Origin: Argopecten irradians
Lineage: Eukaryota > Mollusca > Bivalvia > Pectinida > Pectinidae
Length of the DNA stretch: 64,000 bases
Assembly (NCBI RefSeq): GCF_041381155.1
Contig: NC_091138.1
Span: forward strand, 37,255,604 to 37,319,603
Direction: 5' to 3'
The translations under genes were made by a program, and so were the position numbers. The notes beneath the pieces are model-generated. The model was not told the DNA's origin. It did no database searches and saw nothing but the letters and a program-made list of their open reading frames with translations. Below, in pieces: positions 26,349 to 62,165 of this stretch; position 1 is the stretch's first letter, and the number at the start of each line of letters is the position of its first letter.

Positions 26349-26389
<41 letters not shown>

Positions 26390-26544
26390 AATGATATGAT
26401 GATATGATGATGATGATATGATGATTATGATGATGATAATGATGATGATGATGATGATGATGATGATAATGATATGATGATATGATGATGATAATGATAT
26501 GATGATATGATGATGATGATGATGATGATAATGATGATAATGAT

Positions 26545-26582
<38 letters not shown>

Positions 26583-26619
26583 ATGATGATGATGTTTGAT
26601 CATAGTGAAGATTGTAATT

Positions 26620-26654
<35 letters not shown>

Positions 26655-26816
26655 AATGATATGATGATGATGATGATAATGATATGATGATGATGATGAT
26701 GATGATGATAATGATGATGATGATGATAATGATATGATGATGATGATATGATGATGATGTTTGATCATAGTGAAGATTGTAATTATGATGATGATGATGA
26801 TGATGATGATAATGAT

Positions 26817-26890
<74 letters not shown>

Positions 26891-26902
26891 TGATGATGAT
26901 GA

Positions 26903-26940
<38 letters not shown>

Positions 26941-27000
26941 ATGATGATGATGTTTGATCATAGTGAAGATTGTAATTATGATGATGATGATGATGATGAA

Positions 27001-27031
<31 letters not shown>

Positions 27032-36500: not shown

Positions 36501-39500
36501 CCAGATCAATATATACAAACCTGTCCACAAACAGAAGCAATGATTAAAACCCTTAGGATATCAGGATTTTGTTGAAGACAATTATAATGTGCTATTGTAT
36601 TGACATTATTGAATTTAGATAGATTTACAGAGTATGGATATGGATTTAGTAGCAAAATTAGTTGATTTTAAAATCATTGAACCTTTGAAATTTTAACTTA
36701 GTCACTAATATCACAAAGACTTTATATGAATTTGAAACAAGTATACTTCAAATCAGGCCTTGGTAAGAAATCATTACTACAATTAAAATTAGTTTGGTGC
36801 TTCATCTTCTATTCCAAATCTGGTCGTCTATGACCGGTCTTTTTGACTATGTGTTAACTTGTTATGAATATCATGTCGATGTCACTCAGTATAGAATGGT
36901 AAAGTATAATACTTACCGTCCGCCTGGTCTTGGACGCCTGATTTCTGCTACAGAGATTCCCTTCTTTTCAAATAACTTCTTCACCTTATCATCCGGCATT
37001 TCTGCTACGTTATTAACATGGAGAGTTGCTGTAAAGCAAATGGATAATAATTCTAAAGTTTTTAAAATTTAATAAGTGAGCTAATTTTTATCCAAATTTG
37101 TATATTTTCTACAAACACTTGGTGCGACTATAATCTATTTTCTATTGGACTTTTAATAGAAGGTTGATTGACTTAAAAAATAAAATTTGGATTTTTTTGT
37201 TGACCATAGTAATGTTCCATCTTCATCAGAACTACTTTTCAATAGTTTTTCAATTAACAGTTACACTATTTATTAACCTTTCTTTATCTTTAAAGATGCT
37301 CCACCGCCGACAGAGCATAAACGATGTTCATCACTTGAACAATAATTGGTGTTTAATCGTGTATATATATATGTATAATTAACACAAAAAATAATATAAA
37401 ATAATTTACTTCGCCTTTGGTGCATGAGCAATCAGGACTTCATTCCATATAGGATAAAGTGGCACGGAATTTTTTCGGGATGCAATTAATTATTTTAGAT
37501 ATTTTTAACTTGAAGTAAAATTAGAAGCTCAAACATTTCAATGATGGTAATGGTGTAAAGTAAGTAACTTCAAGTAACTTTTGTAAAAGAAGAAAAATAC
37601 TAAATCGTCTGCTCCTGTTTTTAATAGTGAAAAAATACCATTTGTCAGCGGGGGAGCATCTTTAAAATTTCTATTCCTAATGATGCTCAAAATATGGCCT
37701 TTAAAATAACACTTATGGGTGATCATGTGGTGTAGTGGTTAAGCCACTCCCCATTCACCCAACCTGCAAGGACGTGAAAAGGTTAGGGGTCACCTGCCCG
37801 ATCACGTGGGTTTTCTTTGGGCACTCCGGTTTCCTCCCCAGGGCTCTCTCTTACTTTTGTGTGAATGGGGCCATCAAGAGTGATTTGCATAAGTTGTATA
37901 ACTTGTTTCGTAATCGATGAAAATAAATAGTTTTATAATAATACTTACTTTTTTCTACTGCCTCAGTTTTAGCTTTCTTTGCTGGTTTATTATTTTGGGT
38001 CTTTTTTCTCTTCTTTGAATCTTCTTCTTCTTCCTCATCATCACTGTCCTCTTCATCTTCGTCGTCATCATCTTCATCGTCATCGTCATCATCATCATCT
38101 TCTTCGTCGTCGTCATCATCATCATCTATTGTTTAAAAGTTTATCCTGACCTTTCAATTTTGATTATTTTTTACTTTTGACAAAATTTTAGGTGATTTTA
38201 CTACAAGACTTGATGTAATATTTATCGTTCAAACCCTTTCCTATCTAAATCAGACATGAATTAAAATGACTTCATTGTAACATCACCACTACAGCCGAGT
38301 ACCGAGCAATTTTCCTGGTCAACATGGGCACCTTTTCACCTTTTCTACTAGTGTCTCCATTATTTCACAAGTTCACAATCTTGCCTTTCTTTTAACACAA
38401 TCAAGCACCCCATTTACATGTAAACTTGTTTACTTATTCTTTCATCACATTCTAGCTATAGGTAATGAATAATGATTGGTTTAAAATCTCATAAATCAAG
38501 CATGAAACATTTTCAAATGTTACAATTAACTTAGGTAATTTTTGAATTTTAACTCAATTTTCATGTAGATAAATATGTATAAGCCATATCTAGAGGTGAT
38601 AATGCTAAACCTACCAGCTTGAGCTACAACTTTAGCTTTGGCTACTCCATTAGTCTTGACAGGAGCTGCTTCTGAAGAGAAATAATGACGGAGTATTGAG
38701 ATATGGCTGGCACAACTTGCATTTGCCCAGAAACAGTAAAGAAATGTGCTGACAATCGAAATCTGTATTTGCATATTCCTGAGTTATCTGCCCTTGCGCA
38801 TAGGTATCAATTGTGACATCCCGTTTGCAAGTAATAAGCTACAGAGGATTTAGGTCTGCCTCCGTTTGCAATGTATGCAAATATGATATCAGTTTCGTTT
38901 ACTTGATAAATAGTAAATTATTTTACATTTTATCAATTGTTAGACGTACACGTTTGCAAGCAAGGGAGAAATTTAACATCTGTAATATCGTGCGAAGATG
39001 AATTGAATATGCGTTCTACATCGACCTAAATGTCTTTTGAGACTTCTCCTGTATGATTGATCTATACGGCGAATAGCTTGAAAACATTTCAGAATTAATG
39101 CATATCTTCAAGTATCTTTTGTATCCTAAGCTTACATACTGTGTGCGGTTCATTTCATGCTTTTATGTCTCGTCAACGAGACGCTTTTTGTCGTATCAAC
39201 AAGACTCTGGTTGAACGAGACTAATCATGAATGGAGATTGTTGTAAGGAAGCATGGTTTCTCCAAACGATCGCGATGGAATAGCAAATTGCTTTAATTAG
39301 TATGTTTGAGTCAGTGAATATACTTACTTGGTAAATAAGGTCTTCCTTTTTATTCTTTGTATTGTGATACACTCAGGTAGGAATGAAAGTTTATGCATAC
39401 TACATAAATGTAAAAGTTAAGTGGCTCATTTCAGAAGTCCTCCTAACTCTGCGAAATTAAATACACAATCTTATGCCTGAAGTCATCATACTTTTTAATC

Positions 39501-41757
39501 AATAAATATAAGGGATTAACCTAAAATTACTCAACATACCTTCCTCAGAAATCATCATCATCATCATCATCATCGTCATCTGAAAATGAATATGAAATTT
39601 TGTATTGCACTATTTAAATGATAAGGCAAATACTCAAGTTTCCAGTTATTCTCCCCTAAAGAACTTAAAAAGTAGATAGAAAGTCATAAGAGATCATTTT
39701 TGATAGTGAATTTAAATTTCAAGAGATACTGTAAATCTCAGATTTCAAAGACTATACTTTTTTCTGTGTCCCAGTGAAAAATAACTTTTTTTTTTGCACT
39801 CAGATGAAAAAATCAACTGATTTCCAGCTTTTTTCTTTCTCAAAACAAGAAATTAAACAGCATATTTATCACAATGACCAAAATAGCCTGGGCACCATAT
39901 TTGGCACTGCTTTTAGTCTTCCCTTAAATTAAAGAGTTAGAACTCAAAAATGTATTACAACATTCACAAAATAGAGCTAATCATTTTGATGGAGGCACAA
40001 TCAGTAAGCACTGTCACACACACAAAAATAACTAAAACAAAAAATATAAACTACACAATTTACCATCATCATCGTCGTCGTCATCATCATCGTCATCATC
40101 ACTTTCTTCTGCTTTTTTAATTTTCTTTGGAGGACTTTTCACTACTGTCATAGGCTCTACAATAGGATGCACAGAAAAATCAAATATATTCAAATGCATT
40201 TGATATAATTTTGTTATTGACTTTATGTCAATTTCTTTGAAAATGATACACCCATACAGCATATGTTCATCCAGCTGCCCGTATTTAATTTTATTATGAT
40301 AAATACTTCCTTTCTGGATTACATTCATATCTAGTATGCTTCATTTATGAAATATATCCTTTAAAACTGTCTTACCATCCTCATCATCATCATCGTCGTC
40401 ATCATCATCATCTGAATCATCATCATCGTCACTCTCAGCTTTTCTTTTAGGTGCAGCTTTATTTGCTTTTGCTTTTACAGGTACAGGTACCTTCAAAATA
40501 AGTTCATTTTTTTAAATTACCAATTAGACATATTCTGACCCATCACAATACTTCAATCTGGACCAGACCATCATACTGTGTATTTGACCCAATAAACGAC
40601 CCTAGCTCTTCATTCTCCATTCATTTTTCAATTTTTTAACCACCCTGTAGAAATATCTCTGTTAAGTTTTGGGTTCCCACAGAAGTCGAAGTTGTATCGG
40701 CCAGCCTCTCTTTCAAAAAGTTATTTGTTTATTATATCAGATCAAATATGTAACGGTCCTAAAGTCAACAATGTAAAATTATAGCAGATAATCCATGGCA
40801 TCCAGTAATAGACCCTTGAAAGTATGTTGTTTGATTGCTACAAATCAGATTTGGCTCTTTGGTTAAAGCATAATCCGATCCGAGTTTTTATTCAAAAATT
40901 TGGCTCTTTGGTTAAAGCATAATCCGATCCGAGTTTTTAATCAAAAATTTAACACTTAATTTTAATACCTCATCTTCAGAATCGTCCTCCTCATCAGAAT
41001 CGTCTTCCTCACTTTCAGATTCTACAGGTGGGGGAGGTGCTACAGCCTTTCCTTTCTTTCCTTTGTTTGGAGTCACTGCTCCCTGAAACACCATCACAAA
41101 TCTGGCATTACACACTACACAGTGTTTGATATCATTCAAATAGTCGCACCATTAGTGCACTTTAAAACATACGATAATGGTCATGACGGAAATGCATGTG
41201 CAGTAGCACGAATAATTCAACGCTGCATGAATCATTATTAATGAGTAACATCCGATCCATACACAATTGTCCAACTGCAGAGTTTGTGTTCTCCTTATTT
41301 ACCAACACTTGGTTCACATGTTCAGTATGTATATAAAATTAAAGGTGTGATAAGCCTTACCAAGACACGTTTGATTGGATGGATCTCTAACGGTCGGAAC
41401 GAATATCATTGATGAAGACGGCATCAGTGCCAGTAACCAATAAACGATTAAACGTAGTTTCTTAATTCTAATCAGCATAATCATTTTTCATAGGATAGAA
41501 ATCACCTTTAACAATCATCAATGTTTAATCAATTCTAATGTAAACGGTCTCCTGCCATCCGTTATAAATCTATTTAGTTTTTATATTTTGTACGACCACG
41601 TGGTCCCAGACAACATTTGAGGCACGTGGAGAAAGCGTCAACACTACCCATTTAAATGTCTATTTCAAACTTAACAAAACACATCTGTGTTTTGATTTAT
41701 ATCGAATAGTATAACTTATTAACTTACCTTTTTGCCTTTAACGTTCTTTGGAGCCAT
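33467..41757 (-). CDS. NCL: nucleolin (14-15 exons, three RRMs, RGG box)
   Basis: Minus-strand exons in order: 41757-41728, 41082-40969, 40490-40376, 40156-40064, (39579-39540), 38671-38615, 38125-37949, 37028-36917, 36520-36387, 35974-35845, 35462-35314, 34771-34636, 34408-34302, 34138-33968, 33522-33467. Without the bracketed exon they give 1581 nt, 526 residues, in frame. Nucleolin is a nucleolar RNA-binding protein acting in rRNA transcription, pre-rRNA processing and ribosome assembly. Order: basic N-terminus MAPKNVKGKK, repeated Asp/Glu blocks separated by Lys/Ala/Pro linkers, a basic SKKRKKTQNNKPAKKAK stretch (likely nuclear localisation), RRM1 (about 196-270), RRM2 (280-355), RRM3 (375-451), an RGG box (452-508) and a GRKKTFDD end. 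Vertebrate nucleolin has four RRMs. Each RRM is split at the same phase-2 intron just before RNP1. Confidence 0.93.
33968..34138 (-). CDS. NCL: NCL exon: RGG box
   Basis: Encodes about 57 residues of Gly and Arg with Phe/Asp insertions (RGGGGGRGRGG, GDRGGFRGRG twice), ending GGKSP. RGG boxes bind RNA and are targets of arginine methylation. The plus-strand Pro/Arg ORF here is the antisense shadow. Confidence 0.93.
34302..34771 (-). CDS. NCL: NCL RRM3 exons (34771-34636, 34408-34302)
   Basis: RNP2 is VLFVKNL and RNP1 is GFGFVDFE, the best-conserved RRM of the gene (LSYSCTSDTLQEAFEGC; AGQEIDGRQIFLNFAA). The split lies between SRG and FGFV in phase 2. Confidence 0.93.
34921..35126. repeat. foldback MITE with ACTGTAAACCAA ends
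   Basis: Left ACTGTAAACCAACTTTCTTTC, right TTGGTTTACAGC, with TTCGCG-rich interior, in the NCL intron before RRM3. Related TTCGCG / TTTACAGTA-like fragments occur near 19405-19510, 23490-23560 and 28868-29035. Confidence 0.78.
35314..35974 (-). CDS. NCL: NCL RRM2 exons (35974-35845, 35462-35314)
   Basis: RNP2 is LFVKNL in DTDAMTLFVKNLAETV and RNP1 is GFAYVVFS. A Gly/Pro/Lys linker ending GSPGGRS follows. The chosen acceptor (cttctccag, exon from 35974) keeps phase with the previous exon. The longer frame reaching an ATG at 36038 lacks an acceptor. Confidence 0.88.
36387..37028 (-). CDS. NCL: NCL RRM1 exons (37028-36917, 36520-36387)
   Basis: RNP2 is LHVNNV and RNP1 is RFVYIDL, weaker than the other two. 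The text runs TLHVNNVAEMPDDKVKKLFE to ASQLDKALKLDGTKDMKVAL. Phase 1, split in phase 2, leaving in phase 1. Confidence 0.88.
37290..37665. mobile_element. TTAA-flanked MITE, copy 1
   Basis: TTAA then AGATGCTCCACCGCCGACA; the right end is TGTCAGCGGGGGAGCATCT then TTAA. About 370 bp. A second full copy in the same orientation lies at 45190-45552. TTAA flanks and about 20-bp TIRs suggest mobilisation by a piggyBac-type transposase (inference). Confidence 0.88.
37719..37930 (+). mobile_element. tRNA-derived SINE
   Basis: Starts with a tRNA-like head containing GTGGTGTAGTGGTTAAG, which fits a Pol III A box. It is followed by the GTGGGTTTTCTTTGGGCACT and CCGGTTTCCTCCCC blocks typical of a conserved central domain shared by many invertebrate SINEs. 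The tail is AT-rich. It lies in the NCL intron next to the acidic exon, antisense to NCL. Confidence 0.75.
37949..38125 (-). CDS. NCL: NCL exon: longest acidic block plus basic signal
   Basis: Thirty-six residues almost all Asp/Glu, then DSKKRKKTQNNKPAKKAKTE. Phase 1-1, 59 codons. The acidic run mixes GAT/GAC/GAA/GAG, unlike the pure GAT runs elsewhere, which suggests selection on protein charge. Confidence 0.9.
38765..38997. repeat. foldback MITE, CRE-containing family, copy 4 (degenerate)
   Basis: ATTTGCATATTCCTGAGTTA on the left, and GCAAGGGAGAA..CTGTAATATCG in inverted sense on the right. The interior differs from the other copies. In an NCL intron. Confidence 0.6.
39540..39579 (-). CDS. 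NCL: NCL small poly-Asp exon, out of frame as read
   Basis: Acceptor TTTTCAG and donor GTATGT are good and the exon begins a poly-Asp run. It is 40 nt and reads Asp-Phe-stop in the incoming frame. One base fewer in the T run at 39549-39551 would give an Asp-Ser-Glu-Glu end in the right phase. Alternatives are exon skipping, a natural frameshift or an assembly error. Confidence 0.45.
40064..41757 (-). CDS. NCL: NCL N-terminal acidic exons (41757-41728, 41082-40969, 40490-40376, 40156-40064)
   Basis: Exon 1 encodes MAPKNVKGKK from ATG 41757-41755. The next exons alternate Lys/Pro/Ala linkers (GAVTPNKGKKGKAVAPPPP; VPVPVKAKANKAAPKRKAES; EPMTVVKSPPKKIKKAEES) with runs of Asp/Glu containing Ser sites fit for CK2. 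This is the layout of nucleolin N-termini. Confidence 0.88.
40851..40949. repeat. tandem duplication, 49-bp unit x2
   Basis: TTGGCTCTTTGGTTAAAGCA begins each unit; the copies are almost identical. Adjacent to the donor of NCL exon 2. Confidence 0.9.
41597..41628. promoter_or_regulatory. two CACGTG E-boxes in NCL intron 1
   Basis: CACGTG at 41597-41602 (inside the palindrome GACCACGTGGTC) and at 41623-41628, 100-130 bp into intron 1. CACGTG is the MYC/MAX site, and nucleolin is an established MYC-responsive gene. Use here is inferred. Confidence 0.5.
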
Positions 41758-47800: not shown

Positions 47801-50800
47801 CATAAATATAAAGCTTGAAATATGAAAAAAAAAAATAGAATTTTCAGTATACAAAATAAAAGCAATATTAATGCCTGAAATTATTATGTTTGCAGACAGA
47901 GGCACCTCTCCCGAAGAAACTCTTTTTGGATGGGCAGGTATACATACTTATTAGTAAATCAGTGTTATATATCAATTATTTTTTCCGAGCCTTTTTTCAA
48001 CATCTTGTATTATATTACAGTAATATATACCATAATGTTTTTAAAGCAGATAACATCATTATTCTGTACAGTTTTGTCTCTTGTTCAATACAAATTTCTT
48101 TATTCTTTTGGATTCATGCAAGTTATGTAGTTAAATGGTAAAATATGTTCTCACAGATTGCAACAAATAATTAACTATTGAAATAGTTCTTGAAATTTTA
48201 TTTTAATGGTTTTATGATTTTTTTAGGATGCTGGAAATTTAGAAGCAAGAAAAGGTGAGTAGAGATCTATTTCTAGTTTGCTGTTATAATTAGACACCAT
48301 ATAGTCTCTCCCAGACTGCATTGTAGTCCCCACATTTCACCTCTGAAAACAGCCCACAGAAATTTCAAGATTCTTGAAACACGTTTTAAGGACGCATGTT
48401 AAATTCTTAAAAGATATTGTAAGTTTCCTTTTGTATTATTTTCCTGTAAACAACTGTCAGTTCTGACATTTATAATTTTATCATTCAATATCAAACCAAA
48501 GAGGTATGGACTCTTTAGCAGATACACTAGATTTACTTGTGAATAAATAGTCACAATTTGTTTACAATGTCTGACGTTCACTGTGACTTCACTTATGCAC
48601 AGTTCGCAATGTATTAAACAATCATCGTGGTGTAATATTATGTGACCCAAGGTCAACAGCCAGCCAGTTCTTGAGCCGTTGATGACAGAGGTGAATGTGG
48701 GGACCGCAATGAACCCTGGGAGAGATTAGTTAGACACACCATACAGATGAGGTTTTAATGCTCTTGGATACTGAATTCAGATGAACTAGCTGTCTTTTCA
48801 AATTGAATTACACTTAAAGACAAGATTATACAATTCAAAGCTTTTATTGAACACAATTATTTTGGAAATCTGATCTCTATCCTAGATATTTGTAAATCTT
48901 TATGATTTCTGTATACAGTGTAACTTCCCGAAACCGAACCTTCTCAAAACCGATCACCTCTAGAAACTAAAAATGGATGTCATGTATGGAATGAATTCCT
49001 CTTTATTAATAGTAAATAAAACTTCCCAAAACCGATCCCTCCCAATTCCGAATACCGAACGGAATAGTCAAATGTAACTAAAATACACTTCTGAAAACTG
49101 GCCTTACCTGAGCGACTCCGATAGTTTGCATTGAGGTCTGATCAACCGACCTTGAAATACACACGTACCTGTATCCATAGTTGTCGCATGCCATGTCCTG
49201 GGGCATGTATACAGGTGTGAAGGCTATAGGTATATATACACGGTAATTATGCCAGAGATGGTGGTGTAGTTATATATATATTTATTTAATCATGTCTTTT
49301 TTTTAGATATTCAACGAAGGTTTACTACGTGCACTGGTCTGGCGGTTTGTTTACTGTAGGAAAACAAGCAGAGCTAGTAATAAACAGAAAGTTTCTTATT
49401 CAATTTTGAGTCTCACACGGGTTATTTATTTACTTATGTAGTGGTCAGATAACGTAAATTATCTGTATGAAGAAACCGAAGCCATGTATTACTTTGTCAT
49501 ATAATGCCCAGCATCGACTGATCATCGTGTTATTAGACCATATTTAATTTGATTCTTGACGTAACCGGAAGTGATCGGCCAGATGAGAACATCCCCAAAA
49601 ACATTCACGCAACTAACTACGTTTATTATAAGTGGTAACAAAGTCAAGATCGTTGTAATCCATTCCTTTTAATGGTATGATTTTCTCATTTGTGATAACA
49701 TTTACATTAACAATTACTATCGGTTGGTTATAATGAACACTCGTCAGTACAGTGTAGAATAGAAAATGACTTCCGATCAATAAAATCTGGTTCGTTATGA
49801 TCAATATTCGGTTCACTTCTCTAAACCGGCAGAAATTCTATGCACCGGGAAGTTCCACTGTACAAGGTATGCATAATAACATAGATTGTTTTGTTTTACA
49901 GATGGAAAGAATACACCAGCTAAAAAAGCCCAAACACCAAATCCTAAAACAAAAACGCCCAAGACACAAACACCAAACTTAAAGACAAAAACTCCTTCTA
50001 AAGTAGAAACTCCAAACCCAGCAACAAAGTCTGCAGAAAAGCCAACTCCAAAAATGAAAGTAGAAACACCTGCAAAAGTGCAAACTCCTGTATCAAAAGG
50101 AAAAACACCAGCAAAAGTGCAAACTCCAAATGTAACAGAAAAATCTCAAGCTAAGATGCAAACTCCAAAATCGGCAGCAAAGACACCAGCTAAATTAAAA
50201 ACTCCAGATGTAAAGACTCCTAAAGTAGAAACTCCAGCTCAAAAGACAAAAACACCAGCTAAAGTAGAAACTCCAGCTCAAAAGACAAAAACACCAGCTA
50301 AAGTAGAAACTCCAGCTCAAAAGACAAAAACACCAGCTAAAGTAGAAACTCCAGCTCAAAAGACAAAAACACCAGCTAAAGTGCAAACTCCAGTTCAAAA
50401 GACAAAAACACCAGCTAAAGTGCAAACTCCAGCTCAAAAGACAAAAACACCAGCTAAAGTGCAAACTCCAGTGTCAACAGCAAACGTTTCTCGTGCAAAA
50501 ACTCCAGTCACAAAATCACTGGCTGCTGAAGGATCAGCAAAAAAGAAAACTCCATCTCTGAAACAGGAAGAGGTAGAATCTGATGACAGTGATGATGGTG
50601 ACATTGAAAATACAGGTGAGTTATGGAAGGCTATCTTAAATATCATACTTATATTTAGTGTAATTCTCAAAGTTTATTTTTCAAAGAGAATGATTTTTGA
50701 TACAGTAAAATTTGTTTCAGTGCAATAAAAAGATGTTATGAAACATTTATTGATTAATATGAAATACATAAGCATGTTGGATATAATACAATATACCCTA

Positions 50801-53800
50801 ATTGATGGAGTTTGATATCATATTGCAATTGACAATCATTCATAAAAGTGGTATAGATATATTATGATTAATCAAAATGAATAATTTTTATTCTTGAAGA
50901 CAAAGCAATCTTAGATGACAGTGAAGATGAGAATGATGAAGACATAGGTAAATACAATTATCTAAAGCTATATATTGAATATGGGAATAAAGCAAACACA
51001 CAATTTACTCATTCACCCCTGAAAACCCATTTGAATGCTTCCAATTCAAAGGCTTGAAGAGTTCATTATGAATTTCCAGTGGTCAATGAGATCATTATGG
51101 TATTACATCATTTCTCCATCTTATCTGTCGAGAGAATTATTTGGAAAAATGATTGAAAGATATTTTATCCCCTATTACATCTCTTATGACTTATCTCTAG
51201 TTTTACACTTATATTATAGCTATGGAGAGTGATGACTTTGAAGACATTGACGATGATGAAGATGATGATGATGATGATGATGATGAAGAAATGGTTGAAA
51301 GTGATGATGATGACGACGAAGATGATGAAGAAGAAGATGATGATGATGATGATGATGATGATGAAAAGGAAAAGGAGGAGGAAAAGAACAAAGAAAACAC
51401 AGGTGATTTATTATAGGAAGCAGATGCTATCCTATCTCGTTGGTGTTGATCTGTCTACTCGTTGTGATTCTTTAATGTCAACCAGAATCTTAATAACATG
51501 TATATGATATATTAATTAACCCTATGTTTCTTATAATATCATCAATATTAGTTTTGAATTTATCCACTGCTATTTGAATATGGGATCTTTTTATTCCATT
51601 ATCAATTGATATCACACGATATAATTAATATTAGTTTTTCTATCAAACTAAATACCTGGCATTGTTGGACTTTGCTTCTCATGATAGTTTGTTTTCATGC
51701 TTGCTGAAAATGCTTGATTGTTCAAAGAAAAGTCAGGTTACTGTTGTTAAATAATAAAATGTCAATAGTCTAAAATTCTGTTTAAAGTCATGAAATGTCT
51801 TAATCATAAGGTTTGTTGAATTCATAAGGTATACTTTGGCCTCCATTTTTGGCAGATTCTTATTTATATGCTGGTACATGCAAACAATACTTAGAAACTA
51901 AGAAGAGGGAAATTCAGAAACTCATACAAACGTACATAGGTCTATATCTCTATTGGACTGTCTACCATTTTGGTTGATTATAGACTTTTACATCTATGTA
52001 ATTATATAAATAAAAATAAGACGCATATATCAATATCAACAGAGTACATGCGTAGCATCTTGTAGGTTTTTTACCTCATTGGATTTTTTTAATTTAAAAA
52101 TTGTATACATGCATTCATTTGCTTTTTCAGTTGGAGCAAAAACATCAGTAAAGAAACCAGACACAGAGGTGCAAGGTGAATATGATGAAACTTGAATCTC
52201 TGTTACAATCCTAAAATAAAAGTTATATCAAGTCTGTAAATCTTGTTTCAGAAATGTTTACAAGACATCTGTTTCTTTCCTTCCTGCAATGAGTGTTAAA
52301 GCTCTCTTGGTTCATGATCAAGAATGATATTCTAAATGATATTGTATTTGTGCCATACATTTTGGTTGGAAAATTGATTTAATATGCAACCATACCAATA
52401 TTATAATATGCATAATTGATTTAATCTAAGATATATAATACAATATATATGTATATAAATTTTAATTATATGAAAGTCATAAAGATGGTTTTGAAATGTT
52501 TCATTACCATGTTGGTGATGAATGTTAGCATATCAAAGGCACCCCTACACAGATGCGTATCCTGCAAATATTACAAGCGTGCATTTAAGAATAGTTATAT
52601 AGCTTCAAACTTGTATTTCAGTTGGAACAAATACATCCCTGAAGAAACAGGACACTGACTGGAAAGGTGAACATCAACAGTTTTACTACAATATATAAAT
52701 AGATTGATAAATAGATAAAATAAATCGATATATGAAAAACAAAATACATCAATACATACCAAAGACTTTCATGTTCAGTCAGGGACTTGTGTTTGCTGCA
52801 CACTTCTCTTTTAGATATGTTAAACTTTTAAATTTGTTCTTTAAATGTGAGAATTAAGCTTCTAATTTGGTCAGCTATGCAAGTTATTAGTCTCCCAAAT
52901 GGCCAGGAAATTTGTTATCAACATCATGGTTGTTTTTTTCAGATGTCCTTGACAGAAGGTCATTGTTTGTGAAAAATTTCCCAAGTAAAACGAAGGTTGC
53001 AGACTTAAAAGAATTATCCAAAGATATCTTAGAAGTATTCGCCAAACCATATCTAGGCAGTAGAAATGGAAGTCTACCGTAAGTATAAATATAGCTGTCC
53101 GAATAGGATAGTAAGTGTTATATACATTGTAGGTAGTTAGTAATATTTCTGTTGTACCACTGTACTGGAGTATATGTAGTTTATAATGCTCAACTTTCCA
53201 TTAAGACATAATAAATGGAAAGTACAGAATAGCCATTGAATGTCATTGACTGGTTAAGTCTGGAGGAAGGATTGACTTGCTTATAATTAATAAGGTGCAT
53301 GGCTAGTTAAAGTCAAGGTGATTTGGGGGCAGAAATTTACATTTAAATACATCTTAATTTCAATATTTTACTGATTTTTGCACTATTTTGAGCCCACAAC
53401 GACCTCTCCCATGTTGTTCTGGGTCAAGCAATAATGCTACAGCAATACAGACTCTGATTTTGTGGACATTTTCTTTTCTGGTGTTTACAAATGAAAGTCA
53501 TGTAACAAATGTTTTTATTTTTTTATTTTCCAAACAATGTTGTAACAAAGACTACATTAGCCACATATACATGCACATTACTGCCATTTCATTCCATTCT
53601 GGCATTTTCCTCTCATACACTAGAAATTACATTGTTTTTTATTATTATTTATGAAAAGGGGGCAGGGGGTAAGAAAAAAAAAACAGATGGGGAGGGGGGA
53701 AGGAGGTAAAGGGGGATAAAGGTATGAAGAGGGATGGTATATAAACTAATAAATACCGGTAAACAATTAACATAAGAGATAGAAAGGGGAAAAAAAGGAC

Positions 53801-56800
53801 AGAAAATGGATATCACTTCACAGATCTATACAAATTTATACATAGGGCAAGCATGACACATGGAAAAAACATGTATAAATAACTATTTTATTTCAATTTA
53901 AAATATGGACAAACTGTCAGGGGTTTGCAAGTTCCACCAGTTTTAACCATTTTTGCCAATCTTTATTGTGACTTGCTTATAATTAATAAGGTGCATGGCT
54001 AGTTATATAATTATAATGAAGGTGATTCGGGGGCAGAAATTTACATTTAAATACATCTTAATTTCAATATTTTACCAATTTTTTGCACTATTTTGAGCCC
54101 ACGACGACCTCTTCCATGTTGTTCTGGGTCAAGCAATAATGCTACAGCAATACAGACTCTGATTTTGTGGACATTTTCTTTTCTGGTGTTTACAAATGAA
54201 AGTCATGTAACAAATGTTATATTCTTCCATATTTTCCAATTTGGATGCAATTCTGGTAATCATCAGTGAATATTGAGACACAGATGCCTTGTCATCACAT
54301 GCAATCTAAACGGGACAGCAAGATCGACAGAAATATATAACATACCCGCTCTCTCCCCCTACCGCCTTTAGATTTCATAGGAGGTGGGGGTATAACACAT
54401 ATAATTTCTTATATTCTGTATTTGCATATTTCACAGTTATATGCCCTTTCAGATACATGTAGGTATTGATTGTGACGTCATGTATTTGCGAGAGTAACGT
54501 CATACTTTTTATAAGCAATTACATGGGTATATATACCCTTACAAAATAATGATGTTCACAATCAATCACCTACTCGCATGGCAGGTAACTGTAGCATATG
54601 CAAAGAACAGAATAATTAGTTAGTATGACAGAATTCTTCTCATACAAGTTACCGGGTAGTTATTTATTGTCGGTGCAACTTTTGAGTAGGACTTTAACAT
54701 AAAATTACACAAAGGTGTTTGACGTTTAGTTGTTTCCTGTTGGTGATGCTAGAAGTTAGAACTATTAAAGGCTGTGTTGTTATTTCAAGTGTATACATGT
54801 ATATAAATATACTCTTACAATTGCACTATTTTGAGCCTGCAACGACCTCTCCCGTGTTGTTCTGGGTCAAGCATTTGTGCTACAGCAATACAGACTCTGA
54901 TTTTGTGGACATTTTCTTTTCTGGTGTTTACAAATGAAAGTCATGTAACAAATGTTATATTGTTTAAGTGATTAGAAAAATAATTTGTCATGCATTCTTT
55001 GATACTTTATTAATATATATATACAGAGTCCATAAAAGTGAGTCAATTTGAGTGACACAAAGATACAAATTATACTCAGAGAAAATAGTGATATAATCAG
55101 ATGAAAAAGGTTTATTCTCTGTAGATAATGGACTATTGGTGTAGACTGGACAGACAGCTAAATAGCCAGATAAAGTGCCGTAATACACAAAGTTTTAGAT
55201 AATCTTTGCCCATTCTTATATCTAAATGATCTATCATTTTAAAAGCATCATTTTATTGCTTTGGTGTTAAACTATATTTACAATTAATTAAGCTTTACAT
55301 TTTGACAAGTTTAGATAATTTGGTTTTGGCCAATTCACATTTGTATGCTATATATACTGGTGCATGCATAATAAATTTTTGCACTATTTTGAGCCCACAA
55401 CGACCTCAACCGTGTTGTTATGGGTCAAGCAATAGTGCTACATTAATACAGACTCTGATTTTGTTGACATTTTATTTTCATGGTGTTTACAAATGAAAGT
55501 CATGTGACAATATATATATATATACTGCTGAAGATTCCAAGATTCAGTCTTAACTGTTTTGGTAAATATTAATGCACGAAAAAGTCATCAGCAAAATTTT
55601 GATCGTAATCAATCATTTGATTAGTATACTGGTGCATGCATAATAAATTTTTGCACTATTTTGAGCCCACAACGACCTCAACCGTGTTGTTATGGGTCAA
55701 GCTATAGTGCTACATTAATACAGACTCTGATTTTGTTGACATTTTATTTTCATGGTGTTTACAAATGAAAGTCATGTGACATATATATATACTGCTGAAG
55801 ATTCCAAGATTCAGTCTTAACTGTTTTGGTAAATAAATGCACAAAAAAGTCATCAGCAAAAATTTTGATCGTAATCAATCATTTGATTACTTAAAATACA
55901 TAGTTGATGTATAATACATAGTTGATGTATAAATTTGAGTCTATTTAAGTGACACAAAGATACAATAATGATGTTATCGGATGAAAAAGGTTTATTCTCT
56001 AATCATCCTCAATACTCCAGGGGTTCCGATCACTTTCGATCTCTACTTAGTATTGAGAATGTTCTCTAATGGACTGAGAATGTTCTCTAATGGACTCTGT
56101 AGTTGTAGACTTGACAGACAACTACAGATCTAGAAAAATGGATATACACATGAAAAGTTTTAGATAATCTTTGTCCATTCTATGATCTTCATTGAATCTA
56201 GATCTATCATTTTGAAAGTATCATTTCATTGCTTTATTAGTCTACATTTAACTTTAGCTTTACATTATTGCAAGTTTAGATAATTTGTGTTTGGCTAATT
56301 CACATGTCTATATATATACAGGACATAACTGGTACAAATAAAATAAATTTTTGCACTATTTTGAGCCCACAACGACCTCAACCGTGTTGTTATGGGTCAA
56401 GCAATAGTGCTACAGCAGTACAGACTCTGATTTTGTTGACATTTTATTTTCATGGTGTTTACAAATGAAAGTCATGTGACATGTATATTCTATTAAAGAT
56501 TCTAGCAAGCAGTATGAACATAGAAAACAATTTTATGGTAAAATATAAATTTTATGTCATCCATTCTTTCATACATACTGTGTGCATTCAAATGACAAAA
56601 GACAGTATATTATTTTAAAAAAATGTTGTATTCAGATTAAAAAAATGATTATATATCCATTTCTGTTTCCATGGTTGTGAACTAATCATTTAAACAAAAA
56701 GCCTTAGAACAAGTTTTGGGACAATTACTGCATATTCGTTATACTGCATATTTCCTCTCAGTGATGATCTTCATTGAATTCATTTTCTATAATGTTGGTA

Positions 56801-59800
56801 ACTATCATACTTTAACATAGGAAGGGCAATTCACATGTGCATATTAATAGTCATATATATGAATAATCACTTAATCAATTTTTGCACTATTTTGAGCCTA
56901 CAACGACCTCTTCAATGTTGTTCTGGGTCAAGCAATAGTGCTACATTAATACAGACTCTGATTTTGTGTACATTTTATTTTCTGGTGTTTACAAATGAAA
57001 GTCATGTAACAAATATCAATCACGTAATAACTTGAGATTTGGAGACTCTGTTTAAATTGTTTTAGTGATTATTAACGCACAACGAAAAAGTGATCAACAA
57101 AAAATTAAATAGCCATCCACTTATATAGTCCATATACAAGTGAATGAGTTTAGTGACACAATGATATAAATAACAATGATGTAATTAGATGAAAAAGGTT
57201 TATAGTCTAATGGACTCTGTTGTTGTAAACTAGGCAGACAATGACAAATCTAGAAAATTTGATACGCATTGAATAGTTTCAGATAATCTTTGCCTATATT
57301 TTTTGACCTTCATTGAATTTAGATCTATCATTTTAACATCATTTTATTGCTTTGTTAGACTACATTGAACTTTATCTTTACATTTTTGCAAGTTTAGATA
57401 ATTTGGTTTTGGTTAATTCACATTTAAATATACTGGTACATGTATATCAAATACTTGGCACTATTTTGAGCCCACAACGACCTCTCCCATGTTGTTATGG
57501 GTCAAGCTATAGTGCTACAGCAATACAGACTCTGATTTTGTGGACATTTTATTTTCATGGTGTTTACAAATGAAAGTCATGTGACAGACAATCAATTACA
57601 TGTAAATTTTAACATTCTTATCATGGGTATGTATGCCATGGTTATGAGAGTCATGGACAGTCGGACATTATTAATTTATATACATGTACCTTTGTATTTA
57701 CATTTGCTTCCACTTTATTGCAGATGGGCAATTTTACGTTTTAAGAATGAAGAAACTGCTGTGAAGAACCACAAATTTCTGAGTGGAATGATGATGGAAA
57801 AGAATAAATTGTATGTTGACTATGTTGGTGCAAAGAGCAAGACGGCTACCAAGCAATACAAACAAAATGGTATGTATATTTATAGGATTTCAAAGAAGTG
57901 TTCATTTTATATTGACATCATTGTTAATGCCATTCAAATGGAATTCCTGTACTGACACAAATTTGCTCCAGATCATATTACTCAAATGACATTATATACA
58001 TATATGTGCAAAAGAAATAATGGACAAGTCGCTGAATAAGAAGCTGATTAAGGAATAGATATATTACATATATTCTTCTGTCATTCTCACAACAGGACTA
58101 TAGCTTATAGCTTATAGCTTATGTAGCATTTGACTCCATGTATCAGCACAATTTTGTAGTTTCTTTTCCTGTTCTCAGACCAATGGAAAAAATGGTGTTT
58201 ATGTAACAAGTATAAATTCTTATGAAATAGCAATCTAATAAAAATTAGACTTTTAATTCCGCTCCACTATAATGCTCTACTTTGAACTCCAATACAAGAT
58301 ACAACAATGGCCTTTTCGGGGTCACCTCAGCATCACCCATGGCCTAGAATAGGAACATCTCGGGACAAACTGTTAGCCGTTTATACTTCCGATAGTATCA
58401 CACTGAAAATTTTGTTGGCAAGACACTATTTGACTAACCACAAGGTCATGCTGAGGTGACCCCGAACGGGGCATTGTTAGATCTTGTATTGGAGCGTAAC
58501 GCAGAGCATCGTAGTGGAGCGGAATTATAAGTCTAATTTTAACTATGGATGTAATAGAAAAATAAAATTCAACTTAAAAATCTATATGTTTGTATGTGAA
58601 GAAATTAATTTGTTTTAAAGGAATCCTAAAACTGGTTTCTTTCCCCGACCATTCACTTTAATATTGTAATAATGTTCAACTTTTAGTTGTTTGTTTATTA
58701 GAAAATATACGGTTTATAAATGAAATCTATTGTTAAACCGACTATTGTGTAATATATTGTTTTGATGTGGGACTCAACTATTGGCTTTAAGTGTATCCAA
58801 AATTATGTATGTACACTTTCCTGTTACAGTTCCATTAGACCCTTTACTGTTGTACGTGTCTGGTTTGCCAAACACATGGACGGAGTTGGATCTCAATAGG
58901 CTATTCCCAAAAGCCAAATCGGTTCATTTCCCCACCTCTAAAAAACACAAGAAGGCGCACAAAAAAGTTCTCAGTGCTGTAGGGTAAGTAAACAAAAAAT
59001 TGCCTTGAAATTTGTACTGACAAGAAAATCGTGGAATCCATTATGTTAAAACACTAATCTTTGTTCTACTCTTCCTTTCTCGTCTGAAAACAATATAAAA
59101 TAACCAAATCTGTCTTGAAATCATAAATGAACAACTATGTCTAACCAGTCAAATGGTATGATCGAAAAACAGTGTCATCCATCCCATTGTGTCTGGTCAT
59201 ACCCTCCCAACCTACTCGACTTTGAAGGCTGGGCATTCATGTCTTATAATTACAGATATTTCTTGTCCTATTTCAAAATATCACATTTCTTATCATTTTA
59301 GCATTTTTATGACAGGATATACAATGTGCATAGTCATACTAGTAGCATGTACATGTAGTTGATGACACCCATGTCTGTCTTATAATTTAAACATATTTTA
59401 TTGTAATATTTAAAGGGACAATTCAGTCTAAGAGAATATTAAAATTTGTATATATATCGGGAAAAAAAACCCCAGTTCTAATGGAAATTAGATCAGTCGG
59501 TTTTACTGTGATATGCCATAAAAGCCCATGGTGGTTAAATGCGTGTGAAATGTTCAAACTCGCTCGCTGTCCGCCTTTACACATTGTGGTCGAACATCTT
59601 GTATGCCGAACCCTGTCCCTTGCTCGAAGAGTAATGCAACTTTTGTCTAGAACTGCTCAAATCGCTCTGACAGTAGTGTGTTTACCTTATTAGGTGAATT
59701 GTCTTGCCTAAAAAATAATTTTATCACCTCCTTAGTGGTTATGTAGTTCATTTGTTTAACGTGTGTAACTTCTGCTCGGTTATATGGGTACAGCGTACAT

Positions 59801-60972
59801 ATTGTATCTGCTTAATCGTATTCATCAATGATTTGTAATTACAACGGTATCAATTAAAAAACTAAACAATAACATGAAATTTGTCGATATTTTATGCTAT
59901 ATGTTTCATAAGAAATGTAGAACAATACATTTATGTCATATTTTGCTTCTTGGTTATGTAAAAGAAATAGCCTGAGTGAATTGTCCCTTTAATCTATACT
60001 TTATATAGAACGGGTTGGGGCACAAGTTTTCCAGCTTATATGAAGCCATGTCTATCATATCCCAGCAATGTTACTGACATCCCATTCCAAGTTTACATAG
60101 AGCCAGGTGTATTTGTGTTGAACAGACATTTTCAGTTGACGTTAAACAGAATTGTTTTGTTATAGGTTTGGGTTTGTTCACTTTGCCAATGAAGCTGCAG
60201 CCAAACAAGCACATGACAAGATGCAGGGGAAGATGATAGATGGCCGGACACTGGTCGTTATGTATGCTCACAAGAGAGGGACCACAACCCCTGCTAAAAG
60301 GAAACCTCAAGTAGATAACAGACTTGACGGTGAGAACAAAACTTTTAAACAGAAACTTTATCGATTTTATAACAATTACAAAAACGGTTCAAATCAATCA
60401 CCCCTGAAGACACATTTTGACACTTCTAAATCAAAGACTAGACCAGTCCATTATAGATATCAGGGATGAATGGGTTAATAATCTTTATACTGTGTGACAT
60501 GAAATGTTCATTGTAAAGAATACACCTGTTGTTTTTGTCGTCGTTGTAGAACCACTAAACAACCAAATTTTGTTTTACACAACATTGTTATCTACAGGAC
60601 AACCATGACTATTTCTACTCATGAAATACTTTGAAACCTCCAATGAAACCACAAAAGGAGATACCCACGAACATGTCATGCTATATATATGTATATACAG
60701 TCTGTACACAGTAGCTGGAAGAGTAGTGCTTGAGGGTTCGTAACTTGTGAAGAAGCCCAGATTAGCCCAGAGAAAATTCATATAGTTGAAAGGATGACTA
60801 CATCATAAAAAATGCTACATTTTTCTTTGCTACAGCACCAAGTACAAAAAAGGTAAAGTTATCAACAAAGGAGGATGACGATGATGATGATGATGACGAC
60901 GACGACGACGATGATGATGATGATGACGACGACAACGATGATGATGATGATGATGATGACGATGACGATTGA
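44805..60972 (+). CDS. divergent nucleolin-like protein (14 exons, 655 aa, no RGG box)
   Basis: Exons: 44805-44834, 47138-47233, 47896-47937, 48227-48254, 49902-50615, 50900-50947, 51220-51402, 52131-52175, 52622-52666, 52943-53078, 57724-57869, 58830-58983, 60166-60329, 60836-60972. Total 1968 nt in unbroken phase. Order: basic start MPPKGKTRAK; Pro/Arg-rich segment; about 240 residues of Lys/Thr/Pro repeats (66-303); two acidic blocks (to 380); two paralogous 15-residue exons; RRM1 (about 415-495); RRM2 (about 508-590); poly-Asp tail. The 30-nt first exon and phase 1/2/1 RRM introns match NCL next door, so it is most likely an NCL duplicate. The TP-x-K repeats recall the TPAKK/TPGKK repeats of vertebrate nucleolin, which are CDK sites. 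Likely nuclear or nucleolar RNA binding. RRM2 has canonical RNP motifs; RRM1 is degenerate. Confidence 0.88.
45190..45552. mobile_element. TTAA-flanked MITE, copy 2
   Basis: Same orientation and ends as 37290-37665 (AGATGCTCCACCGCCGACA / TGTCAGCGGTGGAGCATCT), TTAA on both sides. The right TIR here is a perfect inverted match of the left, apart from one base. Confidence 0.9.
46235..46344. repeat. tandem duplication, 62-bp unit
   Basis: TAGGTTTCCTATGGATGTCT begins both copies (46235, 46297). CCCTAAGCCCCTGAC follows in each. Confidence 0.9.
47306..47591. mobile_element. TIR MITE, GATCTGACAACATCCCAT ends
   Basis: GATCTGACAACATCCCAT at the left and ATGGGATGTTGTCAGATC at the right are a perfect inverted pair; the arms extend further with mismatches. 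Intron 2 of the paralogue. Confidence 0.88.
48303..48731. mobile_element. TIR MITE, about 430 bp
   Basis: TAGTCTCTCCCAGACTGCAT..GTCCCCACATTTCACCTCTG on the left pairs with CAGAGGTGAATGTGGGGACC..CCCTGGGAGAGATTA on the right. Intron 4 of the paralogue. Confidence 0.85.
48914..49862. mobile_element. pogo/Tigger-like nonautonomous element, 0.95 kb
   Basis: TA-CAGTGTAACTTCCCGAAAC at the left and CCGGGAAGTTCCACTG-TA at the right form short TIRs with TA flanks, as in Tc1/mariner-pogo elements. Interior CTCCCAATTCCGAATACCGA-type sequence; no transposase. Intron 4 of the paralogue. Confidence 0.72.
49902..50615 (+). CDS. paralogue exon 5: Lys/Thr/Pro repeat domain
   Basis: Encodes 238 residues dominated by TP-x-K units. 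The 3' half carries six near-identical 39-nt units (KTKTPAKVETPAQ or VQTPVQ variants), residues about 170-257, followed by a Ser/Asp-rich end. The repeat gives about thirty Thr-Pro pairs, potential proline-directed kinase sites, in a strongly basic, low-complexity chain like histone H1 tails. Confidence 0.92.
51220..51402 (+). CDS. paralogue exon 7: acidic block
   Basis: AMESDDFEDIDDDED then runs of Asp/Glu to DDDEKEKEEEKNKENT. Phase 1-1, 61 codons. Mostly GAT codons, so a microsatellite-prone exon. Confidence 0.9.
52131..52666 (+). CDS. paralogue exons 8 and 9: duplicated 45-nt exons
   Basis: 52131-52175 encodes VGAKTSVKKPDTEVQ and 52622-52666 encodes VGTNTSLKKQDTDWK. Same length, phase (1-1), acceptor and donor context, so a recent exon duplication. 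Confidence 0.85.
52943..57869 (+). CDS. paralogue RRM1 exons (52943-53078, 57724-57869)
   Basis: RNP2 is SLFVKNFP; the RNP1 position reads WAILRFKN, lacking two of the usual aromatics. The tail is MEKNKLYVDYVGAKSK. The junction is phase 2, like the RRM introns in NCL. The 4.6-kb intron between the halves hosts the H/ACA array. Confidence 0.82.
53380..53510 (+). ncRNA. box H/ACA snoRNA-like unit, copy 1
   Basis: 131 nt. Hairpin 1: GCACTATT pairs with AATAATGC (one C-A mismatch), then TTGA/TCAA, CCCA/TGGG and CAAC/GTTG. H box ACAGCA at 53439-53444 (ANANNA). Hairpin 2: ACAGACT pairs with AGTC-a-TGT and GTGGACA with TGTTTAC, with an internal loop between. ACA box at 53505-53507, three nt before the proposed 3' end. 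Sense to the host; intronic, so it would be released by splicing and exonuclease trimming. Confidence 0.72.
54085..54215 (+). ncRNA. box H/ACA snoRNA-like unit, copy 2
   Basis: Differs from copy 1 at a few bases (CACGACGACC, CTTCC). H box ACAGCA and the ACA box are kept. About 100 bp of upstream flank is also shared with copy 1, so the pair arose by segmental duplication. Confidence 0.72.
54414..54615. repeat. foldback MITE, CRE-containing family, copy 5
   Basis: TATTTGCATATTTCACAGTTAT left, inverted GTAACTGTAGCATATGCAAA right, with GTGACGTCATG and a central ATTACATGGGTATATATACC palindrome. Inserted between snoRNA-like copies 2 and 3. Confidence 0.78.
54823..54953 (+). ncRNA. box H/ACA snoRNA-like unit, copy 3 (hairpin 1 weakened)
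   Basis: Hairpin 1's 3' strand reads CATTTGTGC, breaking part of the basal stem. H box ACAGCA, hairpin 2 and the ACA box are intact. May be losing function. Confidence 0.6.
55381..55512 (+). ncRNA. box H/ACA snoRNA-like unit, copy 4
   Basis: AATAGTGC makes the basal stem of hairpin 1 fully paired (C-G in place of C-A). The H box is ACATTA, a different sequence that still fits ANANNA. The base closing hairpin 2 is G, pairing as U-G instead of U-A. Confidence 0.72.
55653..55784 (+). ncRNA. box H/ACA snoRNA-like unit, copy 5
   Basis: Nearly identical to copy 4 and followed by the same CTGCTGAAGATTCCAAGATT flank. H box ACATTA, ACA box at 55779-55781. Confidence 0.72.
56353..56484 (+). ncRNA. 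box H/ACA snoRNA-like unit, copy 6
   Basis: H box ACAGCA, ACA box at 56479-56481, hairpin 1 basal stem fully paired. Confidence 0.72.
56884..57014 (+). ncRNA. box H/ACA snoRNA-like unit, copy 7
   Basis: H box ACATTA, ACA box at 57009-57011. Loop and upper-stem changes only (TTCAATG, GTGTACA). Confidence 0.72.
57458..57589 (+). ncRNA. box H/ACA snoRNA-like unit, copy 8
   Basis: H box ACAGCA, ACA box at 57584-57586. It lies about 130 bp upstream of the acceptor of the next exon (57724). Confidence 0.72.
58241..58540. mobile_element. TIR MITE, 300 bp with about 95-bp arms
   Basis: AAAATTAGACTTTTAATTCC left, GGAATTATAAGTCTAATTTT right. The arms continue through TGGAGTTC/TACAAGAT..GGGGTCACCTCAGCAT and its inverse. 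Intronic. Confidence 0.9.
58830..60329 (+). CDS. paralogue RRM2 exons (58830-58983, 60166-60329)
   Basis: RNP2 is LLYVSGLP and RNP1 is GFGFVHFA, both canonical, with KMIDGRTLVVMYA as beta 4. A Lys/His-rich KKHKKAHKK loop precedes RNP1. Phase 1, split in phase 2, leaving in phase 1. Confidence 0.9.
59410..59992. mobile_element. TTAA-flanked MITE, AGGGACAATTCA ends
   Basis: TTAA-AGGGACAATTCAGTC left, GAGTGAATTGTCCCT-TTAA right, 583 bp. A second TTAA family, different from the AGATGCTCC one. The 70-codon ORF inside is not supported as a gene. Confidence 0.85.
60836..60972 (+). CDS. paralogue last exon: poly-Asp tail
   Basis: APSTKKVKLSTKE, then about 30 Asp with one Asn, stop TGA at 60970-60972. 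The GAT repeat continues to 61100 in another frame and ends GAATAA, so the present stop follows from an extra T at about 60970. AATAAA at 61101-61106 is a possible early poly(A) signal. Confidence 0.82.
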
Positions 60973-60982
60973 TGATGATGAC

Positions 60983-61033
<51 letters not shown>

Positions 61034-61075: not shown

Positions 61076-62165
61076 GATGATAATGATGATGATGATGATG
61101 AATAAAATATTTTTGTGTAATATGTGGAAAATAAGATTAATTGAGGAAAAATATTCTGTGATATTTAATGAAATTTGATTTAAAAGGCATTTTCATGGAT
61201 CTTAAAATAGATGTCATTGATCATTCAATGTAAGATTTTAACATAAAGTTGTGATTTTGCAGATAAAGTAGTTGTCCCTATCAGTTTCTTCTCAATTACT
61301 ATAAGGCCAAGAGATTTAAGTCCTGTAGCACGTTGAGATGAAGGTCTCGGGAGTCATATTTGCAAAAATATTTTATCAACTTCATAACCATGAACCCCAC
61401 AGACCAAAACCATGAACCCCACAGACCAAAACCATGAACCCCACAGACCAAAACCATGAACCCCACAGACCAAAACCATGAACCCCACAGACCAAAACCA
61501 TGAACCCCACAGACCAAAACCATGAACCCCACAGACCAAAACCATGAACCCCACAGACCAAAACCATGAACCCCACGGACCAAAACCATGAACCCCACGG
61601 ACCAAAACCATGAACCCCACAGACCAAATAATGGGCCTGTAAAATGATTAGATGAAGTTAATTCTGAAATGAATTACGAGTTCAAAACTCAAATGGTGTA
61701 GTTGCTAGGTACTGACCTCGGTTGGGTGATTTTTTTCCTGGTAATCAGTCTTTCATGCACCAGGTCAATGTTTGGCACACTGACTGTACAAACGGTCAAA
61801 CAGCAGTATAAAATTGTGATTTTATTCACAGGTAATAAAGTCCAACACTTTGATTGTTAGTAGAAAAAAATGTTGATGAAATTACTTTTTCCACCCAATA
61901 CAGTTTACCGTAATACATTCTATTACTAAGTAGGGCTTTGTATTACCGTGTACAGTTATAAAATGATAATGTACCTACTTGATAGGTATAGGTAGCACAA
62001 ATGGAGTTTATGAGAAACAGATCTTTTCATTCTTTCATTTAAACATTTTTGTTACCCCCAGTGGTATAGATACGATTTGATACTTATATTTTATTCAATT
62101 TTGCCATGTTTTATAAAATGTTGTACATGAAAATGTAAAAAGACAATAAAGAAAAGAAAAAAAAA
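60973..62165 (+). other. 3' UTR region of the nucleolin paralogue
   Basis: The GAT microsatellite continues to about 61100, followed by AATAAA at 61101. A second signal-like AATAAAG near 62144 is followed by an A-rich run at 62150-62167, where transcripts may end. It also contains the 22-bp minisatellite at 61386-61627. Confidence 0.45.
61386..61627. repeat. 22-bp minisatellite x11
   Basis: Eleven copies of ACCATGAACCCCACAGACCA+AA, almost identical; two units carry G for A (CACGG). Open in all three minus-strand frames because 22 is not a multiple of three. Confidence 0.97.

Follow-up and report, generated by a model that had tools for sequence, protein, structure and literature searches.

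A putative array of eight box H/ACA small nucleolar RNA genes of one guide type in a single intron of a nucleolin-like gene of Argopecten irradians

Known intronic clusters and the Argopecten array

In animals, one small nucleolar RNA (snoRNA) per intron is the predominant rule and intronic clusters of snoRNA genes are a known arrangement, according to excerpts of PMC11028025. Excerpts on flies describe several snoRNA genes within one Drosophila intron (PMC2780460), clusters that are often spread over different introns of one host (PMC5932544) and, in mfl, one gene per intron (PMC1821038). We analysed a stretch of 64,000 nucleotides (nt) of the bivalve Argopecten irradians (contig NC_091138.1; hereafter the window), in which positions 53380-57589 hold eight + strand repeats of 131-132 nt each. 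We regard these with good confidence as eight paralogous genes for box H/ACA snoRNAs, all with the same type of guide, located in a single intron of a nucleolin-like gene. To go by the titles of Huang et al. 2004 and 2005, intronic H/ACA snoRNA gene clusters have reportedly been described in Drosophila. Compared by these titles and by the excerpt of PMC2780460, the Drosophila clusters also contain several snoRNA genes per intron; unlike the clusters as titled, the array described here consists of eight copies, has a single guide and lies in a nucleolin-like host. With eight units in an intron whose splicing is predicted from the DNA, the array falls among intronic snoRNA gene clusters, taken as more than one snoRNA gene per intron, and it is an unusually repetitive case of this known kind of arrangement. 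Eight copies of one guide in one intron look unusual, and a non-exhaustive search of the open-access literature found no report of a nucleolin-hosted array of such a kind. The introns of vertebrate NCL, as we understand it, host SNORA75 (U23), SNORD20 and SNORD82, which have a nucleolin-type host in common with the units and differ from them in target; none of the three was among the Rfam matches listed for the window.

The units are located at 53380..53510 (unit 1), 54085..54215 (unit 2), 54823..54953 (unit 3), 55381..55512 (unit 4), 55653..55784 (unit 5), 56353..56484 (unit 6), 56884..57014 (unit 7) and 57458..57589 (unit 8), all on the + strand; a first-pass annotation of this DNA had already described eight same-strand units of 131-132 nt within 53380-57589. 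Copies 1, 2, 3 and 7 are 131 nt long and copies 4, 5, 6 and 8 are 132 nt long; an ACA is present 3′ of hairpin 2 in all eight, and the end of each unit was placed by definition at ACA + 3 nt. Pairwise identity ranged from 89.3 to 99.2% (the latter between units 4 and 5). The units are 272-738 nt apart from start to start, which corrects the spacing of 0.3-0.9 kb given in the annotation, and the switch in the H box that it had reported was recovered, with ACAGCA in copies 1, 2, 3, 6 and 8 and ACATTA in copies 4, 5 and 7. A model built from the copies scored the eight units at 197.6-214.2 bits in the 64-kb window and found no further copy there, the other matches reaching at most 24.3 bits (the highest of them overlaps unit 4 on the minus strand). 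A blastn comparison of the units with the window minus the intron gave no match at E 1e-3, and the unit pattern gave 0 matches in viral contigs and 0 in genome contigs.

Each copy was predicted to fold as hairpin, H box, hairpin and ACA + 3 nt, so that the two hairpins and ANANNA hinge of the H/ACA class are present in the predicted folds of 8/8 copies. When the copies were folded alone, the z-scores ranged from -2.11 (unit 3, the weakest) to -4.14 (unit 7, the strongest), and the numbers of shuffles per 200 that folded equally well were 1, 0, 11, 1, 0, 1, 0 and 0 for copies 1 to 8. A structure-only scan, whose sole requirements were two single hairpins, an ANANNA-bearing hinge and an ACA, covered 49800-61000 on the + strand and 33700-41400 on the minus strand, which are the sense strands of two nucleolin-type genes. 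The + stretch yielded ten hits, namely all eight units and two that used the first hairpin of unit 5 and of unit 6 a second time (energy about -33), and the minus stretch yielded a single weak hit, lying partly within an RRM exon of the gene on that strand. The shuffled control, one shuffle per scanned stretch, gave 0 hits, with the + shuffle (6.5 kb) omitting nearly all of the intron. Because the scan recovered all eight units, the H/ACA shape is detectable without prior location. The folds and the scan support the H/ACA interpretation of the first-pass annotation and the order of elements that it had proposed. The switch from a C-A mismatch to a C-G pair that it had noted in hairpin 1 is real, but the C-G pair is found in copies 3-8 rather than 4-8; the C-A mismatch is present in units 1 (low in hairpin 1) and 2, and unit 3 has two U-U mismatches low in the same hairpin. 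The alternation of U-A and U-G at the base of hairpin 2 was found as described, in a ratio of 4:4.

Predicted guide pockets and relation to known families

The pocket of hairpin 1 consists of UUUUGA 5′ of the upper stem and CAAGCA 3′ of it, and is complementary (with one U-G) to the sequence AUAUGCUUG-U-C-UCAAAG of 18S ribosomal RNA (rRNA), in which the U between the two paired segments is the placed target. UUUUGA pairs with six nt from position +2 relative to the pseudouridine (Psi), including the one U-G, and CAAGCA pairs with the six nt preceding it. In 8/8 copies, 14 nt separate the start of the 3′ guide from the H box, and a bipartite guide pocket about 14-16 nt before the box with a complementary target is therefore present in hairpin 1. 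At the equivalent of U34 the pairing was 6+6 in five copies, 6+7 in copy 3 and 6+5 in copies 5 and 8. The reference was an algal 18S (PMC8125830, Appendix D), in which the Psi34 equivalent was, in fixed register, the sole site with at least 3+3 pairs for hairpin 1. The hairpin 1 score was reached by 4/1000 shuffled 18S sequences (9/1000 with the guide variant that copies 5 and 8 carry and 3/1000 with that of copy 3) and by 4/2000 permuted hairpin 1 guides. With 12 registers allowed, the Psi34 equivalent was still the best site and was equalled in 7/300 shuffles. The 18S pattern gave 0 matches in viral contigs.

The position number 34 is what we take to be the human 18S numbering. It is consistent with the chicken table of PMC2653536. 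In the excerpted parts of that source, the chicken ACA50/ACA62 homologue is assigned to 18S-34 through 6+6 nt of its 5′ hairpin and to 18S-105 through the partner hairpin, and the host is intron 16 of CNOT1, in contrast to the nucleolin-like host of the units. The consensus pocket of Rfam SNORA50 (CUUUGA / CAAGCa) is nearly the same as that of hairpin 1, and the consensus pocket of SNORA76 (CUcUGa / CagGCU) is similar. The 18S Psi34 guide of SNORA50/76 was thus found in hairpin 1 as complementarity. On this evidence, hairpin 1 would act as the first hairpin in SNORA50/76 does, and most likely guides pseudouridylation of 18S at the human Psi34 position. The first-pass annotation had derived no rRNA position; comparison of the pocket with 18S supplied this conserved target.

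The Rfam matches to the units were all below the cut-offs, and of overlapping matches within one clan the best alone was shown. SNORA46 matched 8/8 copies at 26.6-35.9 bits (cut-off 80) and had the top bit score each time. SNORA50 (RF00407) was listed for 7/8 copies at 24.0-32.6 bits (cut-off 90), and SNORA76 (RF00598) for unit 8 as the sole copy, at 31.6 bits (cut-off 37); neither reached its gathering score. SNORA46 was rejected as the family of the units: it is like them by bit score, but its pocket (UUUAA / UACGC) differs from theirs (UUUUGA / CAAGC), as does its 18S target, ACA46 being assigned to 18S-610 in chicken numbering in the excerpt of PMC2653536. SNORA50 and SNORA76 are like the units in the hairpin 1 pocket, the 18S-34 target, size and box layout, and differ in that the units score below the cut-offs, have no Psi105 guide in hairpin 2 and occur as eight copies. 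Because the cut-off is not reached and the Psi105 guide is missing, we do not file the units as members of SNORA50/76. Kinship with SNORA75/U23, to which the first-pass annotation had pointed, was rejected: the covariance-model search listed SNORA46, SNORA50 and SNORA76 as the nearest families, and SNORA75 was absent among the matches listed to E 10 (53000-57800) and to E 3 (window), lower-scoring overlaps of the same clan being unlisted.

The pocket of hairpin 2 is invariant across the copies. Its candidate sites in the algal 18S were position 884 (7+5 pairs, 13 nt to the ACA; 1/300 shuffles), in a stretch that presumably differs in animals, positions 955/956 (5+7 at 13 nt or 4+8 at 14 nt) and position 99 (6+4, 14 nt; 44/300 shuffles as good). 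A role as Psi105 guide was rejected, with the 3′ guide forming at most one pair across seven registers at the U of AAAUCAG, which we take to be human position 105. The fit near 105 is instead with the U four nt upstream, presumably human U101, and its score was reached in 44/300 shuffles (all-register) and by 45/2000 permuted guides. Nothing better was found among the best 14 listed matches to U1, U2, U4, U5, U6, 5.8S and part of 28S.

Duplication of the array and alternative explanations

The spacers before unit 4 (54954..55380), before unit 6 (55785..56352) and before unit 8 (57015..57457), all read on the + strand, are homologous to one another, and the 5′ part of the spacer before unit 6 is also homologous to the spacer after unit 4. 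Homology was likewise found between the spacers before units 1 and 2 and between those after units 4 and 5. The array therefore appears to have grown by tandem duplication of a unit together with intron DNA, after which the units would have been kept by selection, or homogenised, as the spacers drifted. The mismatch in alignable flank and in unit was 15.0 vs 2.3% for copies 4 and 6 (Fisher p 3e-5), 16.6 vs 5.4% for 4 and 8 (p 8e-4), 16.5 vs 4.7% for 6 and 8 (p 2e-4), 21.5 vs 7.0% for 4 and 7 (p 4e-3) and 16.5 vs 8.4% for 5 and 7 (p 0.014, with the same spacer alignment as 6 and 8). In these older pairs the alignable flank had accumulated two to six times the divergence of the units (five of eight comparisons significant), and the young pairs gave no significant difference, with 5.6 vs 1.5% for copies 1 and 2 (p 0.08) and, in two comparisons of copies 4 and 5, 1.0% and 0 vs 0.8%. 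The tests are uncorrected, cover alignable flank only and have copies common to several comparisons; the s5/s7 spacer pair, which serves two unit pairs, combines three aligned pieces and s3/s5 combines two. Because co-duplicated flank diverged more than the units in the older pairs, the units appear to be constrained or homogenised. Selection on the units is the simplest reason to be drawn from these comparisons, and gene conversion confined to the units may be an alternative to it.

Two repeats were observed in or near the spacers. Part of the spacer that separates units 2 and 3 (54413-54614) recurs at five other places of the window with 73-76% identity, in either orientation, and is probably an inserted mobile repeat. 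Short relatives of the segment 42294-42384, which matches the MIR781 model on both strands at 45.4 and 34.7 bits (cut-off 88), are present in the spacer after unit 5 and probably belong to a repeat family.

Several observations weigh against eight H/ACA genes of one guide type. No family reached its Rfam gathering score in the window, the algal 18S is a stand-in for the 18S of this species, in copies 5 and 8 the 3′ guide of hairpin 1 forms five pairs instead of six, and the 18S candidates included no convincing target for hairpin 2. Among the eight close copies, 0/41 pairs were altered on both sides, four varied on one side and five contained unpaired cells. Paired cells amounted to 97.9% of 328, and column shuffles did as well in 500/500. 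The covariation test is low in power because the copies are too alike. The proposal of the first-pass annotation that the changes tend to preserve structure agrees weakly with the 7/328 unpaired cells, and is not borne out by any two-sided change or by the shuffles.

It is possible, although we think it rather doubtful, that one or a few units are active guides and that the rest are duplicates becoming pseudogenes. A single active copy would be enough for a single site, the mismatches low in hairpin 1 (C-A in copies 1 and 2, two U-U in copy 3) fall in its lower stem, and the guide pair lost in copies 5 and 8 points in the same direction; however, the H and ACA boxes and the hairpin 2 guides are intact in 8/8 copies, at least five of the six 3′ guide pairs of hairpin 1 are kept in 8/8, and the units diverge less than their flanks in the five older pairs (4-6, 4-8, 6-8, 4-7 and 5-7). 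A transposon or short interspersed nuclear element that resembles an H/ACA RNA and was inserted repeatedly is very improbable. The repeated unit is about 130 nt long and snoRNA retrocopies are dispersed in mammalian genomes, but the units here are on the same strand of one intron with no other copy in 64 kb, their flanks were co-duplicated, and no A-rich tail was seen in the flanks inspected. The words that the two flanks have in common measure 3-7 nt, a length equalled or exceeded in 55-500 of 500 shuffles, which does not suggest insertion-type flanking duplications, and the fit of the pocket to a conserved rRNA site would be unexpected of such an element. Conservation of the units as coding, repeated cassette exons is the least credible explanation: one frame is open in copies 1, 2, 3 and 7, but in copies 4, 5, 6 and 8 the loop of hairpin 2 is one nt longer and that frame runs into a stop, and zero frames are open across all eight copies.

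If the units are H/ACA snoRNA genes, as we favour, we infer that they are expressed, processed and used in rRNA modification. The units would be set free when the host is transcribed and the intron removed, H/ACA core proteins would shield both ends of each, and hairpin 1 would direct pseudouridine formation at the 18S Psi34 position. For an intron with a single snoRNA, trimming from both ends is possible, according to the excerpt of PMC11028025. In the eight-unit intron, the inner copies would remain linked unless every spacer were cut, and such spacer cuts are expected because the boxes are intact in all eight copies. The same excerpt gives two snoRNAs in one intron as a route to snoRNA-related long noncoding RNAs (sno-lncRNAs; e.g. 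SLERT), which are ended by two small nucleolar ribonucleoproteins (snoRNPs; PMC11028025). The units have in common with them more than one snoRNA per intron, and would differ from them if their spacers do not persist as RNA. Beyond supplying dosage for a single pseudouridine, the intron could conceivably yield a ladder of up to seven H/ACA-ended sno-lncRNAs (spacers of 140-607 nt), produced along with the host mRNA and kept in the nucleolus, with hairpin 2 guiding a new, lineage-specific site; exonucleases acting on the spliced intron would then free the outer ends alone. We consider this ladder improbable.

The host gene and its surroundings

The host intron (53079..57723, + strand) is 4645 nt long, runs from gtaagt to ttgcag (GT-AG) and interrupts an RRM; its 5′ splice site lies 301 nt before the start of unit 1 and its 3′ splice site 134 nt beyond the end of unit 8. 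The flanking + strand exons, 52943..53078 with the first half of an RRM-like domain (LFVKNFPSKTK...) and 57724..57869 with its second half (WAILRFKNEE...), join in frame at an LPW junction, and the reading phase is kept. The exon 49902..50615 encodes KTPAKxxTP repeats, in part with a 39-nt period, and the exons 58830..58983 and 60166..60329, also on the + strand, encode the first and second halves of a second RRM. The predicted product contains KTPAK repeats, acidic exons, two RRM-like domains and an Asp-rich tail. Its RRM part had nucleolin as the top PDB match (9cb5, E 5e-13, both domains), one RRM was detected in it by Pfam, and no relative was found at E 0.001 among 126 candidates of a protein collection.

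The minus strand carries another gene, at 33900-41150, which looks like a canonical nucleolin, with acidic exons, RRMs and an RGG tail; its joined RRM part matched nucleolin at E 3e-66. Among the 120 of 338 protein matches listed, the best was from the bivalve Tegillarca granosa (48%, E 2.5e-69), and the others included abalone, scallop, oyster, Dreissena and Capitella, with salmonids at 31-35%. Taken by itself, this one gene would place the window probably in a lophotrochozoan, and likely in a bivalve. The host and this gene have 27% identity over 186 residues. On the strength of these comparisons, the host is nucleolin-like and divergent and neighbours the canonical nucleolin gene, and because the two adjoin on opposite strands, they would be divergently transcribed. 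The single intron and nucleolin-type host claimed in the first-pass annotation are thus confirmed by splice sites, frame and PDB match, and the function of such a host fits the snoRNA interpretation.

Other features were observed in and around the host gene. Two consecutive host exons, 52131-52175 and 52622-52666, appear to be duplicates, together with the intron DNA next to them (VGAKTSVKKPDTEVQ, VGTNTSLKKQDTDWK; 78% over 59 nt), and a coding tandem repeat at 50220-50471 (39 nt, 6.5 copies, 98% match) encodes KTPAKVETPAQKT-like peptide repeats. The intron that follows the exon at 57724..57869 contains, at 58236-58545, an inverted repeat with 102-nt arms, 84% complementary and 106 nt apart, resembling a miniature inverted-repeat transposable element. 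A 22-nt tandem repeat (11 copies, 99% match) is located downstream of the host gene at 61386-61628. Elsewhere in the window, an ATG-period array of about 1.2 kb occupies 25967-27148, and two open frames at 18169-19421 (+) match the prolyl 4-hydroxylase alpha N-terminal domain at 33.2 and 22.8 bits (cut-off 25.3).

The array shows that divergent H/ACA genes slip below Rfam cut-offs, and its co-duplicated spacers act as an internal clock by which the constraint on each copy becomes measurable. It raises the question of how a guide for the same site sits in CNOT1 in the chicken and in a nucleolin-like host here. With eight copies of the same guide in one intron, it offers a clean natural case for how internal copies are excised, and it allows one to ask whether copy number sets the extent of ribosomal modification.

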